Part shown: positions 11,552 through 17,933 of the stretch, piece after piece
Numbering within the stretch: position 1 is the first letter of the stretch
How the letters are laid out: each line of letters starts with the position of its first letter
Assembly (NCBI RefSeq): GCF_020009625.1
Contig: NZ_JAIHLP010000002.1
Coordinates: forward strand, 744,001 to 808,000
Source of the DNA: Leifsonia poae
GTDB taxonomy: Bacteria; Actinomycetota; Actinomycetes; Actinomycetales; Microbacteriaceae
Reading direction: 5' to 3'
DNA: 64,000 nt
Notes under the pieces: generated by a model
Database searches by the model: none
Told to the model about the DNA's origin: nothing
What the model saw: only the letters and a program-made list of their open reading frames with translations
Position numbers and translations under genes: made by a program

Positions 11552-13633
11552 TCAGGCGTCGATGCGGGCGCGTGAGAGGTCGTCGGCGCCGGCGATGATG
11601 AACTCTTTGCGCGGGGCGACGTCGTTGCCCATCAGGAGCTCGAATACGCGAGCAGCCTGCTCCGCGTCGGGCACCCGCACCCGGCGCAGCGTGCGGTGTT
11701 TGCGATCCATCGTCGTCGTGGCCAGCTGATCCGCGTCCATCTCGCCGAGGCCCTTGTAGCGCTGGATCGGCTCCTGATACCGCTTGCCGCGCTTCTTCAG
11801 GTCGGCGAGCACAGCCTGAAGCTCCGCCTCAGAGTAGGTGTAGATCGTCTCGTTCGGCTTCGAACCGGGGTTCACCACGATCACCCGGTGCAGTGGAGGC
11901 ACGGCCGCGAACACCCGGCCGTCTTCGATCATCGGGCGCATGTAGCGGAAGAACAGGGTGAGCAGCAGCGTGCGGATGTGCGCCCCATCCACGTCGGCGT
12001 CGCTCATGATGATGATCTTGCCGTAACGGGCGGTCGACAGGTCGAAGCTGCGGCCGGAACCTGCGCCGATCACCTGGATGATCGCCGCGCACTCCTGGTT
12101 CGACAGCATGTCGGAGACAGAGGCCTTCTGCACGTTGAGGATCTTGCCCCGAATGGGCAGCAGGGCCTGGTGCTCGCTGTCGCGGGCCCGGCGCGCCGTA
12201 CCGAGGGCGGAGTCTCCTTCGACGATGAACAGTTCGCTGTTGCTCACATCGCTCGACCGGCAGTCGACGAGCTTGGCCGGCAGCGACGAAGTCTCCAGCG
12301 CATTCTTGCGGCGCTGCGTCTCCTTGTGGGCGCGCGCCGAGATCCGCGACTTCATCTCGGCGACGACCTTGTCGAGCAGCAACGAGGACTGCGCCTTGTC
12401 GTCGCGCTTGGGCGAGGTGAACCGCTCGTTCATCGTCTTCTGGACGACCTGCGCGACGATCGCGCGCACGGCGGGGGTTCCGAGGATCTCCTTGGTCTGC
12501 CCCTCGAACTGCGGCTCGGGCAGGCGAACGGTGAGCACAGCGGTGAGTCCGGCCATCACATCGTCTTTGTCGAGCTTGTCGTTTCCGACCTTCAGCCGAC
12601 GCGCGTTCTGCTCGACCTGCGCGCGAAGGAATTTGAGCATCCCCTGGTCGAAGCCGGCCTGGTGGCTGCCGCCTTTGGGCGTCGCGATGATGTTCACGAA
12701 ACTGCGCATGACCGTCTCGTAGCCGGTGCCCCAGCGCAGGGCGATGTCGACCTGGCAGTCGCGTCTGAGCTCGGTGGGCACCATCGCACCCGAATCAGAG
12801 AGCACCGGGACGGTCTCGGTGAAATGTCCTTCGCCGGTCAGCCGCCAGGTGTCGGTGATCGGGCTGTCCGGCGCGAGGAAGTCGACGAACTCCGAGATGC
12901 CGCCCGAGTACGAGAAGGTGGTCGTCTCCCCGTCGGGGCTCCGCTTGTCGTCGATCGAGATGCTGATGCCCGGAACGAGGAACGCCGTCTGGCGGGCGCG
13001 ACCGATCAGGTCTTCCGCCTGGAACTCCGCGCCCTTCGTGAAGATCTGACGATCGGCCCAGTATCGGATGCGCGTGCCGGTGACACCACGCTTCACCTTG
13101 CCGACAACCCGCAGTTCGCTGCCGTTCTCGAACGGCGCGAACGGCGCATCCGGCGTCGGCTCGCCCGTGTCGGCGAAGATGCCGGGTTCGCCACGGTGGA
13201 ACGACATCGCCCAGGTCTTGCCGTCGCGGTCGACCTCGACGTCGAGCCGCTCCGAGAGCGCGTTGACGACCGAGGCGCCGACGCCATGCAGACCGCCCGA
13301 GGCGGCGTACGATCCCGAGCCGAACTTGCCGCCGGCGTGCAGCTTGGTGAACACGACCTCGACGCCGCTCAGGCCGGTCTTCGGCTCGATGTCCACGGGG
13401 ATGCCGCGAGCGCTGTCGCGGACCTCGACGCTGCTGTCGGCGTGCAGGATGAGCTCGATGCTGTCGCCATGGCCGGCCAGCGCCTCGTCGACGGAGTTGT
13501 CGATGATCTCCCAGAGGCAGTGCATGAGGCCGCGGGAATCGGTCGAGCCGATGTACATGCCCGGGCGCTTGCGCACCGCTTCCAGGCCCTCCAGAACCGA
13601 GAGGTGCCTGGCCGAATAATCTGAGCTCGCCAC
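11552..13633 (-). CDS. parE: DNA topoisomerase IV subunit B (GyrB family)
   Basis: ATPase subunit partnering ParC. I place the start at the GTG at 13633, which follows AAGGAG with 8-nt spacing and gives VASSDYSARHLSVLEG (693 residues); an upstream ATG would add 26 unlikely residues. Visible motifs: GLEAVRKRPGMYIG, the GHKL ATP site (EIIDNSVDEA, GLHGVGASVVNAL), and the TOPRIM segments VEGDSALG and SDADVDGAHI that bind magnesium. The C-terminus includes RYKGLGEMDADQL, the usual GyrB/ParE ending. It faces parC across only 44 nt. Confidence 0.94.
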   Translation of the reverse strand: MASSDYSARHLSVLEGLEAVRKRPGMYIGSTDSRGLMHCLWEIIDNSVDEALAGHGDSIELILHADSSVEVRDSARGIPVDIEPKTGLSGVEVVFTKLHAGGKFGSGSYAASGGLHGVGASVVNALSERLDVEVDRDGKTWAMSFHRGEPGIFADTGEPTPDAPFAPFENGSELRVVGKVKRGVTGTRIRYWADRQIFTKGAEFQAEDLIGRARQTAFLVPGISISIDDKRSPDGETTTFSYSGGISEFVDFLAPDSPITDTWRLTGEGHFTETVPVLSDSGAMVPTELRRDCQVDIALRWGTGYETVMRSFVNIIATPKGGSHQAGFDQGMLKFLRAQVEQNARRLKVGNDKLDKDDVMAGLTAVLTVRLPEPQFEGQTKEILGTPAVRAIVAQVVQKTMNERFTSPKRDDKAQSSLLLDKVVAEMKSRISARAHKETQRRKNALETSSLPAKLVDCRSSDVSNSELFIVEGDSALGTARRARDSEHQALLPIRGKILNVQKASVSDMLSNQECAAIIQVIGAGSGRSFDLSTARYGKIIIMSDADVDGAHIRTLLLTLFFRYMRPMIEDGRVFAAVPPLHRVIVVNPGSKPNETIYTYSEAELQAVLADLKKRGKRYQEPIQRYKGLGEMDADQLATTTMDRKHRTLRRVRVPDAEQAARVFELLMGNDVAPRKEFIIAGADDLSRARIDA

Positions 13634-13860
13634 GAGCGCTCCTTGCAGAAAGTCGAGGCGCCGGGTGGGGATGCGAACGGCTGGCGCCATGCCACCCACC
13701 AGCGTAAGCACTCCGCAGGCCCGCGCCCGCCACCGACACTCTCCTGGGTGTCTGCTACGCGTTGAGCGAAATAGGGCGCAAATCAGGCAGGGTTCGGCAC
13801 AGAACGTGGTTCTATAGACGTACCGAAGTTAATCCGGTTGCGATCTGGAAGGAGCATCAC

Positions 13861-14097
13861 ATGTCGACGATCACCACGGAGAACGGTGCGGTTGACGAGC
13901 TCGCATCGGGGCCGCAACTCACGGCGGCCGACCGTTGCGACAGCTGCGGAGCCCAGGCTTACATCCGCGTCGTCGTGAACAACGGCGAACTCCTGTTCTG
14001 CGCCCACCACGGCAAGAAGCACCAGGAGAAGCTGTCCGAGATCGCGCACAGCTGGCACGACGAGACCGCACGTCTCTTCGAAGACCAGCGCGCATAA
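13861..14097 (+). CDS. DUF7455 small zinc-ribbon-like protein
   Basis: A 78-residue cytosolic protein. The ATG at 13861 follows GGAAGGAGCATCAC, a strong ribosome-binding site. The core LTAADRCDSCGAQAYIRVVV then LLFCAHHGKKH shows a CxxC plus a C-x2-H arrangement that could bind a metal. The family is found in most actinobacteria near sigA, and its function is unknown. A TATAGA at 13813-13818 is a plausible -10 box with a 40-nt leader. The 227-nt gap back to parE holds nothing else I can identify. Confidence 0.85.
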   Translation: MSTITTENGAVDELASGPQLTAADRCDSCGAQAYIRVVVNNGELLFCAHHGKKHQEKLSEIAHSWHDETARLFEDQRA

Positions 14098-14131: not shown

Positions 14132-14839
14132 ATGGGACAGCGGTCGACGGGTGTGCGCAGGCACGCCATCGTCGACCTTGGCCGCATCGTCGCGAACGCC
14201 GAGGCTGCGGCTGATGCACCACTCACCGACTCCACCGCCGATCTCCGCGCCGACGCGTACGGCCACGGGCTTCTGCCCGTCGCTCGTGCACTGAGGGATG
14301 CGGGGGTCGGCGGTTTTCTCGTCTCCCGGTTCGAAGACGCCGCCGAGCTCGCCGATGCCGGCCTTCCGGCCGTCCTGGTCGGGTCGGCCGCGGGACCCCT
14401 ACTCGGACCGACGATCTACGGGCTCGATCCCACGCAGCCCTCAGCGCCCACACTACGGCTCGTGGGCGAGGTCGTCGCCGTGAAGCGGGTCGAGGCCGAC
14501 CGCGGCGTCTCATACGGGTACACCTACCGCACGGGCAAGCCGACCACACTCGCCCTGGTCGCCCTCGGCTTCGCCGATGGCATCCCGCGCGTCGCCACGA
14601 ACCGCGCGCCGGTTCGGATCGGCGCCTTCACCGGACGGGTCACCGGGCGTATCGCCATGGACCAGTTCGTCGTCGACATCGACGATACGTTCGCGCGGCC
14701 GGGCGACCCCGCTGTGCTCTTCGGCGATCCGGACCGGGACGAGCCGAGCATCCACGACTGGTCTTCGGCCGTCGGCATCGCCGCACCCGTCATCGTGAGC
14801 CGCCTCGGCCGCCGCATCGAGAGGCATTACAGCGCATGA
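14132..14839 (+). CDS. Barrel-deleted alanine racemase paralogue lacking the PLP lysine
   Basis: A 235-residue relative of alanine racemase, much shorter than the usual 370. The N-terminus keeps the first barrel strands (HAIVDLGRI, then RADAYGHGLLPVARAL), but the lysine that binds pyridoxal phosphate is arginine (Arg39). From about residue 85 the sequence jumps straight to the end of the barrel (IYGLDP), so most of the TIM barrel is missing. The C-terminal domain is complete and has the catalytic-tyrosine loop VSYGYTYRT (Tyr128) and GRIAMDQFVVD. Alone it cannot be a racemase. It overlaps the next alr gene by ATGA, so the two are translationally coupled. I infer that it supplies the tyrosine to the partner encoded downstream (see findings). 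Confidence 0.85.
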   Translation: MGQRSTGVRRHAIVDLGRIVANAEAAADAPLTDSTADLRADAYGHGLLPVARALRDAGVGGFLVSRFEDAAELADAGLPAVLVGSAAGPLLGPTIYGLDPTQPSAPTLRLVGEVVAVKRVEADRGVSYGYTYRTGKPTTLALVALGFADGIPRVATNRAPVRIGAFTGRVTGRIAMDQFVVDIDDTFARPGDPAVLFGDPDRDEPSIHDWSSAVGIAAPVIVSRLGRRIERHYSA

Positions 14840-15912
14840 CGAGCATCGACGCCATCGACGAGCCGCTCCCCCGTGCCGTCATCGACCTGGGGGCACTCCG
14901 CCGAAATATCGCGCACCTCGCCGCGCACATCGCTCCGGCCGAAGTGATGTTCGCGGTGAAGGCCGACGCGTACGGCCATGGCCTGCTCCCGGTCGCGCGG
15001 GCCGGTATCGAGGCGGGAGCGACCTCGCTCGCGGTTCTGGAGATCCCGGCCGGTCTGGTTCTGCGGAGCGCCGGCATCGAGGTGCCGCTCCTCGCCTGGT
15101 TGCACGGCACCGACACCGACTTCCGTGCCGGCATCGAGGCCGGCATCGAGCTCGGTGTCTCCGCCGATTGGCAACTCGCCGCGATCGCCGCGGCCGGCGC
15201 CGACCGCCCCGCTGTCGTGCATCTCAAAGTCGACACCGGTCTCAGCCGTAACGGCGCCACCGCCGAACAATGGCCGGCCCTCGTCGACGAGGCGCTCGCT
15301 CTGCAGCGCCGTGGCCTGCTTCGCATCCGCGCCGCTTGGTCGCACCTCGCCGACGCCTCATTGGCCGACGACGAGGCCGCCCTCGCCGAATTCCATGCGG
15401 CCGTCGCCGTCGCAGAAGCCCGCGGAGCGACCTTCGAGATCCTGCACCTTGCCGCCAGTTCGGCCGGCATCCGGATGCCCGAGGCACGCTTCGACCTTGT
15501 GCGCTTCGGGATCGCCGCCTACGGGATCTCGCCCTTCGACGATCGGTCCGGGGCCGACCTCGGCCTCACTCCAGTGATGCGGCTGGAAGCCCCGGTCACC
15601 GAGGTACACGTCGACGGCACCACGCATGCCCGGCTCGGAATCGGTTTCGCCGACGGTGTTCCCACGCTGGGGACGGCCAAGGCATCAGTGGCGCTCGGCG
15701 GCCGTCCGCGCCCCATCGTCTCCGTGGAGGCCGACACGATGCTCGTCGACGTCGGCGCCGACCGAGTGCGTCGCGGTGACACGGCGACGCTCTTCGGGCC
15801 GGGGACGGCCGGTGAGGTCAACGCGGAGCTGTGGGCCGACTGGGCCGAGACCATCGCCGACGAGCTGGTGACGTGCCTCGCTCCTCGCGTCCCCCGCGTC
15901 TACGTCGACTGA
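14836..15912 (+). CDS. alr: Alanine racemase, barrel subunit lacking the catalytic-tyrosine loop
   Basis: Member of the PLP-dependent alanine racemase family (L-Ala to D-Ala for peptidoglycan), 358 residues. The barrel is intact: AVKADAYGHG with the PLP lysine (Lys42), HLKVDTGLSRNG, SHLADA, and VRFGIAAYGISP with the arginine that contacts the pyridine nitrogen. In the C-terminal domain the expected VSYGxTY segment, which carries the second catalytic base, is absent: the sequence goes from MRLEAPVTEVHVDG directly to ARLGIGFADGVP. The usual GRxxMDQ motif is also replaced, by VEADTMLVD. It overlaps the preceding gene, which has exactly the missing parts. The family is certain; activity as a homodimer is doubtful. 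Confidence 0.88.
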   Translation: MTSIDAIDEPLPRAVIDLGALRRNIAHLAAHIAPAEVMFAVKADAYGHGLLPVARAGIEAGATSLAVLEIPAGLVLRSAGIEVPLLAWLHGTDTDFRAGIEAGIELGVSADWQLAAIAAAGADRPAVVHLKVDTGLSRNGATAEQWPALVDEALALQRRGLLRIRAAWSHLADASLADDEAALAEFHAAVAVAEARGATFEILHLAASSAGIRMPEARFDLVRFGIAAYGISPFDDRSGADLGLTPVMRLEAPVTEVHVDGTTHARLGIGFADGVPTLGTAKASVALGGRPRPIVSVEADTMLVDVGADRVRRGDTATLFGPGTAGEVNAELWADWAETIADELVTCLAPRVPRVYVD

Positions 15913-15921
15913 GGCGACCGG

Positions 15922-16662
15922 TCAAAGCCTGACGCCGAGCCGCTCAGCGATCGCACGCCGCGCATTCACGGCGTAGCCGTCTACCGTCCGCACCTCCGGC
16001 ACCGCCGTCAACGGCACGGTGTCGCCGCGACGCGCCAGAGCGTCTGCCAGGATGCGATCGGCGAGCTCCGGATTCATCGGCAACAACGGACCGTGCAGAT
16101 GAGTTCCGATCGAAGCGCCGACCGTGACGCCTTCGACACGCTGATCGGCGGAAGCGTCATTTCCGAACCCGCTCACCACGGCGCCGAGCGGCTCGCCGCC
16201 GTCCAGCACCGTTCGCGCGGAATGGTTCTCGAACCCGGCAACGGTTCCGTCGGCGGTGCGCACGACCGACTCGCTGACATGCCGCTCTGCCCCGAGAATC
16301 GCCCGGCTCGGGAACACTCCGGCGCCGTGGAGTCTCTCCCCCTCGGCGGTGACGAGTTCAACGCCGAGGAGCTGCCAACCGCCGGCGATCGCCAGGATCG
16401 GCACGCCCGCATCCCGCCATGCCCGAAGCGTCGGCGCGAGACGCTGAACGTCGTCGAGCACCGCACGCTGCGAAGAGAGCGGGCCGCTGCCGATGTGCAC
16501 GAGATCGACCGACTCGGGCAGACTGTCACCCGGCTCGTGGCTCACGACCTCGGTCGCGATGCCACGCCAGCGTGCACGCTCCACCAGCGCCATCACATTG
16601 CCGGCGTCGCCGTTGATGCCGAGCTCGCGGGGATAGAGGTGCAGAATGCGCAGTGCCGTCAT
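15922..16662 (-). CDS. gatD: GatD-like amidotransferase subunit with Cys-to-Ala change
   Basis: A 246-residue CobB/CobQ-type glutamine amidotransferase. In most Gram-positive bacteria GatD hydrolyses glutamine and passes ammonia to MurT, which amidates the D-Glu of lipid II. The partner gene murT overlaps upstream by ATGA. The fold markers are present, including YPRELGINGDAGN and GTHLHGPLLPMNP with the catalytic histidine (His190). The nucleophile elbow, normally ICGGYQ, reads IAGGWQ: residue 93 is Ala, encoded GCC. Canonical glutaminase activity should therefore be absent. Either the subunit is structural, or free ammonia or another amine is used. The annotation as GatD is by family only. 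Confidence 0.87.
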   Translation of the reverse strand: MTALRILHLYPRELGINGDAGNVMALVERARWRGIATEVVSHEPGDSLPESVDLVHIGSGPLSSQRAVLDDVQRLAPTLRAWRDAGVPILAIAGGWQLLGVELVTAEGERLHGAGVFPSRAILGAERHVSESVVRTADGTVAGFENHSARTVLDGGEPLGAVVSGFGNDASADQRVEGVTVGASIGTHLHGPLLPMNPELADRILADALARRGDTVPLTAVPEVRTVDGYAVNARRAIAERLGVRL

Positions 16663-17933
16663 CGTTCTCCCCCTTCGAGATCGAGGAAGCCGAGCTGTTT
16701 GCGGATGAGCATCATCTGCTCATAGTTCACGATCATCGTCTTGGTGCCGCGGGACGGCTTCGGCAGCGACAGGAACGCCGCCAGGGCAGGGCGCAGCTCG
16801 GGCACGACCGAGCCGACGGGGATCCCCGCGTAACCGAAGCGGGTGGCGAACTGCCACGCCTTCGTTCCCGAGACCATGTCGACGTGCTCGATCGACGAAA
16901 AGTCGATGTCGTAGATCCACGACGGGTCCGGTGTTCCCTCATCCACGGCCACGAACACCTGCTCAGGCGCTTCGGCCAGGTAGTCGAGATTCAACTGCAG
17001 GCTCGGCGGGTTCTTCATCATGATGATCTCGATGTCCTCATCGCCGACCCGCAGCGTCTCACCGCGGCCGTAGACCGTGCGCAGCGATGACATCGCCCGG
17101 GCGACGGCCTCGCCACGGAAGCGCTCTCCGAGCAGCCTGCGCGCCATGGCGGTCGCGCCGGCCGCGTCGATCGCGTAGTGCAGGCCGCGGGCCGGAAGTG
17201 CGATCTGAACGCTCTCGCCGCCGACGGTCAGGTCGGCGGTGCGGCCGGTGAGCGCGTTCACGGTCACTGTCGGCGCCGGCAAGGCGGCGACGACAGTACG
17301 GGAGAAGTCCTCGACGTTGGCCAGACCGTTCGGCGACGCGTCGATCAGCGCCGGTGCGACGGCGAAGGTCGACACATCGCGTCCCTCGGCCACGAACTCG
17401 GCGCCGATGCCCGACAGGCTGTCGTCGTCGGCGTTCACAACGACGAACTCGGACGACGATGCTCCGATCGATCGGAGCATTCCGACGACACGGGCCGGCT
17501 CGAAGAACCGGTTCAACTGGTCGATCTGCACATTGAGCAGCAGTGAGCCGCGCGGTTTGAGGACCGTCGCCAGGTTCACGCCGTAGGCCTCGTCGACCTC
17601 GATCACGCCGACGTCTCCGCGCACATAGCCGTCGAGGGGCACCGTCGCCAGCAATGCTGACGCGATTCCCTGCGGCAGGTTGCCGCCCGACGGGTTCGTG
17701 AAGACGGTCAGGCCGTGCTCGCGCAGAATGCCGGTGAGCATGTTGGTCGTGGTCGATTTGCCGTTCGAACCGGAGACGAACACCACGCCGAGCGGAAGGC
17801 GCTCGACGGCGCGCTCCAGAAACCTCGGAGCGATCGCGAGGGCGACCCGGCCGGGAACGGCCGAGCCGCCGCCGCGAAGGCGCAGCACCCAGCGGGCGAG
17901 GCGGCCTGCGAGGACCGCCAGCCTGTAGCGCAC
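16659..17933 (-). CDS. murT: MurT-like Mur ligase lacking the zinc ribbon
   Basis: A 424-residue Mur-ligase-family protein with the C-terminal DUF1727 domain. MurT normally activates the alpha-carboxyl of D-Glu in lipid II with ATP so that ammonia from GatD can amidate it. The P-loop is clear (GSNGKSTTT, Lys59), as are IEVDEAYG, NVQIDQLNRF and the C-terminal SWIYDIDF and VSGTKAWQFATRFGYAG. Canonical MurT has a four-cysteine ribbon in its central domain. Here I find no cysteine anywhere in the protein, and the corresponding stretch (about 185-245) has no CPxCG pairs. Together with the Cys loss in GatD this suggests a changed reaction. The gene sits 9 nt downstream of sigA on the same strand. 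Confidence 0.88.
   Translation of the reverse strand: MRYRLAVLAGRLARWVLRLRGGGSAVPGRVALAIAPRFLERAVERLPLGVVFVSGSNGKSTTTNMLTGILREHGLTVFTNPSGGNLPQGIASALLATVPLDGYVRGDVGVIEVDEAYGVNLATVLKPRGSLLLNVQIDQLNRFFEPARVVGMLRSIGASSSEFVVVNADDDSLSGIGAEFVAEGRDVSTFAVAPALIDASPNGLANVEDFSRTVVAALPAPTVTVNALTGRTADLTVGGESVQIALPARGLHYAIDAAGATAMARRLLGERFRGEAVARAMSSLRTVYGRGETLRVGDEDIEIIMMKNPPSLQLNLDYLAEAPEQVFVAVDEGTPDPSWIYDIDFSSIEHVDMVSGTKAWQFATRFGYAGIPVGSVVPELRPALAAFLSLPKPSRGTKTMIVNYEQMMLIRKQLGFLDLEGGER

Follow-up and report, generated by a model that had tools for sequence, protein, structure and literature searches.

The window analysed here is a stretch of 64,000 nt of Leifsonia poae (Microbacteriaceae; GCF_020009625.1, contig NZ_JAIHLP010000002.1, positions 744,001–808,000, forward strand), and coordinates below are those of the window unless a contig is named. 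Its + strand carries two overlapping genes, both of which belong by sequence and predicted fold to the Alr/DadX family of fold-type III PLP enzymes (PF01168 and PF00842). Gene 1 (14132..14839), the Tyr chain, encodes 235 residues of an Alr whose TIM barrel is mostly gone and whose C-terminal domain is whole, while gene 2 (14836..15912), the Lys chain, encodes 358 residues with a whole PLP barrel and a C-terminal domain devoid of the tyrosine loop and of the GRxxMDQ motif. The stop codon of gene 1 and the start codon of gene 2 overlap in an ATGA (14836..14839, +). Pfam matches followed the same division: gene 1 matched Ala_racemase_N (PF01168) only at positions 1–74 of 220 and Ala_racemase_C (PF00842) at 2–127 of 127, whereas gene 2 matched the former at 1–220 of 220 and the latter only at 32–127, so that the tyrosine loop, which lies within positions 1–31 of that model, is missing from gene 2. 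The predicted single-chain models of both genes were high-confidence pieces of Alr and showed the Alr fold.

At the place of the PLP lysine, gene 1 reads LRADAYGHG, with Arg39 (codon 14246..14248, +), versus VKADAYGHG in gene 2, with Lys42 (14959..14961, +), a residue invariant in two alignments. Other active-site residues are given here in the numbering of the Geobacillus stearothermophilus enzyme, in which, by alignment, Lys39, Tyr43, Arg136, His166 and Arg219 come from the subunit itself and Tyr265′, Tyr284′, Arg290′, Arg309′ and Met312′ from its partner. Gene 2 possesses Arg138 (15247..15249, +), His170 (15343..15345, +) and Arg223 (15502..15504, +), equivalent to Arg136, His166 and Arg219 of known Alrs. 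The VSYGYTYRT loop and the GRIAMDQ motif occur only in gene 1, where Tyr128 (14513..14515, +) is aligned with the catalytic Tyr265′, Arg153 (14588..14590, +) with Arg290′, the partner-supplied entryway residue, and Met176 (14657..14659, +), within GRIAMDQ, with Met312′. Less in keeping with a normal active site, gene 1 has Phe instead of Tyr at the Tyr284′ place, as do 15 of the 110 Tyr chains described below, and gene 2 has Ala where many Alrs have Asn203. Thus, the PLP-lysine barrel is present in gene 2 and absent from gene 1, and vice versa for the domain with the catalytic loop. ORFs, Pfam spans, motifs and alignment were in agreement with a first-pass annotation of this DNA, which had described the lengths, retained residues and losses of both genes, as well as their overlap, in these terms.

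The pair lies next to a gyrB/parE-type topoisomerase subunit (11552..13711, −; Pfam and NCBIfam), which marks its conserved locus, and a small DUF7455 protein (13861..14097, +; PF24254). On its other side are a GatD-like glutamine amidotransferase (15922..16662, −; Pfam GATase_3, best NCBIfam match GatD) and a MurT-like Mur ligase (16659..17933, −; Pfam MurT_C and Mur_ligase_M, best NCBIfam match MurT). Both of the latter (15922–17933) score far under the NCBIfam equivalog cut-offs, and the lipid II amidation machinery at this locus may be divergent too.

Complementary residues in related pairs

The first-pass annotation had called for a search of related genomes for the same gene pair. Scans of 150 and 349 genomes of the family, in which matches were listed and loci then read, revealed pairs in at least 30 of 85 genus groups and, in the fetched loci, at least 110 distinct Lys-chain/Tyr-chain pairs, that of the window included. 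The best 80 candidates kept from a scan of named genomes comprised 35 split pairs, 17 complete tandem pairs, one fusion and 27 single intact Alrs, and the split pairs were hosted by Leifsonia, Diaminobutyricibacter, Pseudolysinimonas, Pseudoclavibacter, Schumannella, Frigoribacterium sp. CG_9.8, Agreia, Homoserinimonas, Homoserinibacter, Pontimonas and MAGs. A gyrB/parE-type gene was found within the fetched stretch of 104 of the 110 distinct pairs and of all 35 in the named set, and glmS, acpS and tsaE in the fetched stretches of none of the 110. In one MAG titled Acidobacteria bacterium G2_35 (L058), a split pair is flanked, as elsewhere, by gyrB/parE, DUF7455, GatD and MurT genes, and the title of this record is probably wrong. 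Outside Microbacteriaceae (230 of the 248 genomes of the order), none of the matches listed exceeded 261 bits, a value near the range of intact Alrs (the window genome's own intact Alr scored 242 bits); independent origins may exist there.

In the 110 pairs, Tyr43, Arg136, His166 and Arg219 were kept by every Lys chain, none of which had the catalytic tyrosine, and the Met312 place was held by Met in one of 110 and otherwise by V, A, L, R and others. Conversely, every Tyr chain kept Tyr265 and Met312, 100 of 110 kept Arg309 and none had the lysine, whose place was taken by R (73, an automatic call that includes the misaligned L123 and L124, Ser by eye), S (7), D (5), T (5), A (4), G (4) or P (1), or was absent (11). 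Lys39 is invariant in the Lys chains by construction, the chains having been sorted on it. A second tally, over the distinct chains rather than the loci of window-type pairs (P1), gave Tyr43, Arg136, His166 and Arg219 in 104/104, Tyr265 in 0/104 and Arg290 in 7/104 Lys chains, and Tyr265, Arg290 and Met312 in 102/102, Arg309 in 92/102 and Lys39 in 0/102 Tyr chains. As a control, 71 intact chains from the same scans were tallied: Lys39, Tyr43, Arg136, His166, Arg219 and Tyr265 were present in all 71, Arg309 was present in 65, and Tyr284, Arg290 and Met312 were each present in 70, with a gap in the remaining chain. Lysine and tyrosine are therefore found together in neither gene of the window nor in any single chain of the 110 pairs, and for that reason neither chain is classed alone as a standard Alr. 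A chance partition is ruled out by its repetition in 110 distinct pairs.

The two paralogues, one of them lacking a key catalytic residue, also travel together: among 136 fetched loci with a P1-type Lys chain, 134 contained both chains and two, both at contig ends, the Lys chain alone. Relatives in which gene 1 is absent and gene 2 still lacks the loop, which the first-pass annotation had regarded as telling against its reading, were thus not encountered in these 136 loci beyond the two contig-end cases. In 83 of 107 pairs gene 2 has a start codon that would create this 4-base overlap, the script having picked the in-frame start closest to that spacing. In 17 pairwise comparisons, dN/dS ranged from 0.08 to 0.48 for gene 1 and from 0.08 to 0.27 for gene 2, which indicates purifying selection on both genes. 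The earlier description of the paralogues as decayed is hence a misleading word for a pair that is widespread, syntenic and under purifying selection.

Reduced, fused and canonical-locus forms

The reduction of the Tyr chains is graded. Their barrel, measured between the Lys and Arg219 places, ranges from 174 residues (L153, Lys replaced by Thr) down to 0, and in five pairs, L158, L159 and L161 among them, the Tyr chain is a bare C-terminal domain. Long-barrel Tyr chains without the lysine, observed at L153 (G008) and at L143, L144 and L152 (genus group g80), possibly represent early stages of reduction. On the other side of the partition, the Lys chains of g38 (L162, L165, L173) keep the length of the loop with no tyrosine in it. 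Three natural fusions of the window pair type (L123, L124 and L183) join Tyr and Lys units in one chain. L123 (identical to L077, MAG RYN_83) and L124 belong to the same genus group, are 53% identical and are each a single ORF, in which a Tyr unit with a long barrel and, by eye, Ser at the Lys place precedes a loop-less Lys unit; L183 (g73) is a separate fusion with a short Tyr unit. Sequencing frameshifts are an unlikely source of these fusions, since one recurs in two species of a genus group whose proteins are 53% identical, and a further one is present in a second genus group.

The intact Alr of the family sits in the order glmS-acpS-alr-tsaE-tsaB, and this canonical locus shows divided forms as well. 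In all seven genomes of g77 (Agreia) it is occupied by a pair of genes with the Lys chain ahead of the Tyr chain, the opposite order to the window; each of these genomes has four PF00842 matches, which its two pairs account for completely, leaving it with no intact Alr. In 14 genomes of g73 (Pseudoclavibacter) and g21 (17 fetched loci), a single ORF of about 600 aa stands here, in which a Lys unit precedes a Tyr unit; it is adjoined by tsaE and tsaB in 17 of 17 loci, and by glmS and acpS in all nine whose stretch is long enough. This fused chain is the only PF00842 protein in six of the seven g21 genomes examined. The complementary division of Alr is therefore wider than first noted, embracing pairs, fusions and the canonical locus too. 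The canonical locus of Herbiconiux, Subtercola and Planctomonas has two Alrs in tandem, both complete (L051, L052, L055–L057, L059–L063, L066, L070, L072, L074, L078, L079 and L082). Unlike the window pair, both chains of these tandems (Alr1-Alr2) keep Lys and Tyr, although the second gene shares a barrel clade with gene 2. By PF00842 matches, the split pair was absent from the four tandem genomes searched (G040, G110, G218, G295), as if the tandem and split states replaced each other. Three g73 genomes (G073, G274, G188) encode, in addition to the canonical-locus fused chain, a divergent complete Alr-like chain (L242, L246, L248) with VGYERTH for VSYGxxY and LPGMN for GRxxMDQ, and the pattern of PF00842 matches in G339 resembles theirs.

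Whether a canonical alr elsewhere could do the job had been raised by the first-pass annotation against its own reading, and the outcome differs between genomes. The window genome has two intact Alrs besides the pair, one of them at the canonical locus; the pair is accordingly not its only possible source of D-Ala, nor needed for it, and here the objection holds. In contrast, a PF00842 search of 90 genomes (1 + 7 + 38 + 36 + 8) found 17 with split or fused halves only and no intact Alr: the seven of g77; G234, G309 and G136 of g73; and G325, G020, G100, G161, G211, G255 and G293 of g21. Their completeness is 97–100%, and ten of them bear a window-type pair (the seven of g77, G234, G309 and G325). 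The remaining 73 genomes have an additional match to the whole C-terminal domain, within a reading frame of at least 368 aa, residues having been checked only in the fetched ones. All 17 genomes show a strong match to D-Ala-D-Ala ligase (Ddl), counting only the top match per genome (E 9.1e-62 or better), given that the Ddl family also matches all 14 control genomes, archaea included. A D-amino acid transaminase above the TIGR01121 cut-off was found in none of 14 genomes, which cover 13 of the 17, and in one of 14 control genomes; weaker aminotransferase matches occur in 12 of the 14 genomes tested, and another D-amino-acid transaminase, outside TIGR01121, could supply D-Ala in the 17. Judging from gene content, the complementary halves very probably are the alanine racemase of the lineages without an intact Alr, and alanine is very probably the substrate of the canonical-locus versions in Agreia, the Pseudoclavibacter-type g73 and g21. 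Outside the window, at G000:C2:892851-893930, the other intact Alr of this genome is followed within 500 bases by a D-Ala-D-Ala-ligase-like match (894421-894951); the two may form an alr-ddl unit, which would be distinct from the genome's best Ddl match (C2:120127).

Trees and number of origins

Topologies were compared by AU tests (LG+G4) on a barrel tree of 59 rows, with P2 denoting the Agreia canonical-locus pair and T2 the intact second chains of the complete tandems. A single clade of all Lys-only barrels was rejected (p-AU 0.0003), as were a clade of P1 with the canonical-locus fused Lys units (0.0025) and one of P1 without the intact T2 chains (0.018); a clade of Agreia P2 with the canonical-locus fused Lys units was not rejected (0.39). 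The T2 chains fell in two places inside the P1 clade of the barrel tree, while in the tree of the C-terminal (Tyr) domain, built from few columns by a quick method, they grouped with the Agreia Tyr chains (SH-aLRT 95). As this conflict could reflect gene conversion in T2, a possible event, origins inside the P1 clade were not counted. The Agreia Lys chain was placed among first-gene and intact barrels with weaker support (83). With its Tyr chain beside the tandem second genes and its Lys chain beside first-gene barrels, the Agreia pair is the mirror image of the window pair. We conclude that the division arose at least twice and probably three times, the third origin being suggested by the Tyr units of Agreia P2 and of the canonical-locus fused chains, which fall apart in a short alignment analysed by a quick method.

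These data make it likely that in Microbacteriaceae the symmetric Alr homodimer was converted, several times, into an enzyme that is obligately asymmetric and has only one active site, through complementary losses after duplication, and that in 17 of the 90 genomes, from three genus groups, this enzyme replaced the ancestral one. Three routes may be envisaged. In one, at the gyrB/parE locus, the second paralogue would have become the Lys donor; in its mirror image, at the canonical locus of Agreia, the first paralogue would have become the Lys donor and the second the Tyr donor; the third would have led to a single fused Lys-Tyr chain.

A proposed single-site heterodimer and the competing readings

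According to the structural account in PMC3146814, the PLP lysine and the catalytic tyrosine of solved Alr dimers, the two catalytic bases, come from different subunits, as we propose here, and the partner subunit also contributes the entryway residues Tyr282′, Arg288′ and Arg307′ (S. pneumoniae numbering). With Lys and Tyr on opposite subunits, only a 1:1 pair of gene 1 and gene 2 would have a full active site and either homodimer would have none, a logic put forward in the first-pass annotation and borne out by those structures (PMC3146814). Genes 1 and 2 very likely encode the two unlike subunits of a heterodimeric Alr-family racemase that has just one active site. What the sequences show is the conserved partition, the synteny, the natural fusions and the genomes devoid of an intact Alr, from which a 1:1 complex and its catalysis are predicted. 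Gene 2 would provide the lysine-bearing barrel along with the PLP contacts of its own subunit, and gene 1 those residues that reach in from the other subunit in a homodimer (Tyr265′, Arg290′, Met312′). The second, mirror active site would have been lost twice over, with the barrel in gene 1 and with the tyrosine loop in gene 2.

That both genes are dead remnants or sequencing artefacts is hardly conceivable: each indeed misses half of the usual catalytic residues, yet the 110 pairs, the conserved locus with its synteny and dN/dS values of 0.08–0.48 led us to reject this idea. Gene 2 might instead work without gene 1, as a PLP carrier or in a different one-base chemistry, gene 1 being in either case a regulator, given that all own-subunit PLP contacts tested are kept and that gene 2 passes the NCBIfam alr cut-off by itself. 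This seems improbable, since Tyr265′, Arg290′ and Met312′ persist in gene 1 of every tallied pair, even the barrel-less ones, the fused forms retain both sets of residues, and a solitary loop-less gene 2 appeared in the fetched loci only at two contig ends. Even less probable is a partnership of gene 1 with an intact Alr, as tyrosine donor or modulator, which would leave gene 2 with another role; intact Alrs do exist in the window genome, but gene 1 adjoins gene 2 in the fetched loci, three natural fusions join both, and ten pair-bearing genomes are devoid of any intact Alr.

A more serious alternative, which we hold tentatively and at somewhat less than even chances, accepts the heterodimer and assigns it another D-amino acid of the wall as substrate, such as D-ornithine or D-diaminobutyrate of B-type peptidoglycan; it competes only with the name alanine racemase and not with the heterodimeric reading. 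Consistent with it, the window genome already has two intact Alrs, the pair adjoins GatD/MurT-like wall genes, and either pairs or the tandem second gene related to gene 2 are found in genera including Agreia and Subtercola, whose walls are described in PMC5945732 as having L-DAB linked to D-Orn and B2-gamma DAB, respectively. On the other hand, no specificity residue was identified, the wall chemistry comes from very few genera, and Agreia has a second pair, so that either of its pairs could make D-Ala. From the GatD/MurT-like neighbours and the D-Orn/DAB walls, a diamino acid is no more than a fair guess for the substrate of the window pair.

Compared with known Alrs, homodimers with two equal sites, each chain of the heterodimer proposed here holds one half of a lone site. 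Strych and Benedik (J Bacteriol 2002) reportedly obtained Alr mutants that complement each other between subunits and are active only in combination, and a laboratory-made fragmentary Alr is said to have been produced by Toyama and colleagues in 1991; those systems were engineered, whereas pairs of the window type are natural, widespread and repeated. The open-licence PMC literature, judged partly by title, yielded no description of a heterodimeric or split Alr, as the first-pass annotation had supposed, an absence that is no proof. Students of protein evolution still debate what turns homomers into obligate heteromers, usually on the strength of a handful of examples. In the present case a single textbook enzyme displays intact tandems, barrels without the lysine, loops without the tyrosine, barrels that have vanished altogether and fused chains; its outcomes recur, even in mirror image, and many of the hosts are named isolates. 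A parallel is offered by the trypanosomatid deoxyhypusine synthase, for which PMC3663545 describes a gene duplication that gave rise to a hetero-oligomer whose two kinds of subunit, one impaired and one catalytically dead, are each essential; it is another enzyme from another kingdom, and the title of that paper refers to allosteric activation, whereas the Alr partner would supply a catalytic base.

The pair also bears on annotation. Against NCBIfam TIGR00492 (the alr equivalog, cut-off 168), gene 1 remains under the threshold with 110.9 bits and gene 2 exceeds it with 186 bits, so that the NCBI model would misleadingly give the name alanine racemase to gene 2, a protein that by itself has only one of the two catalytic bases.
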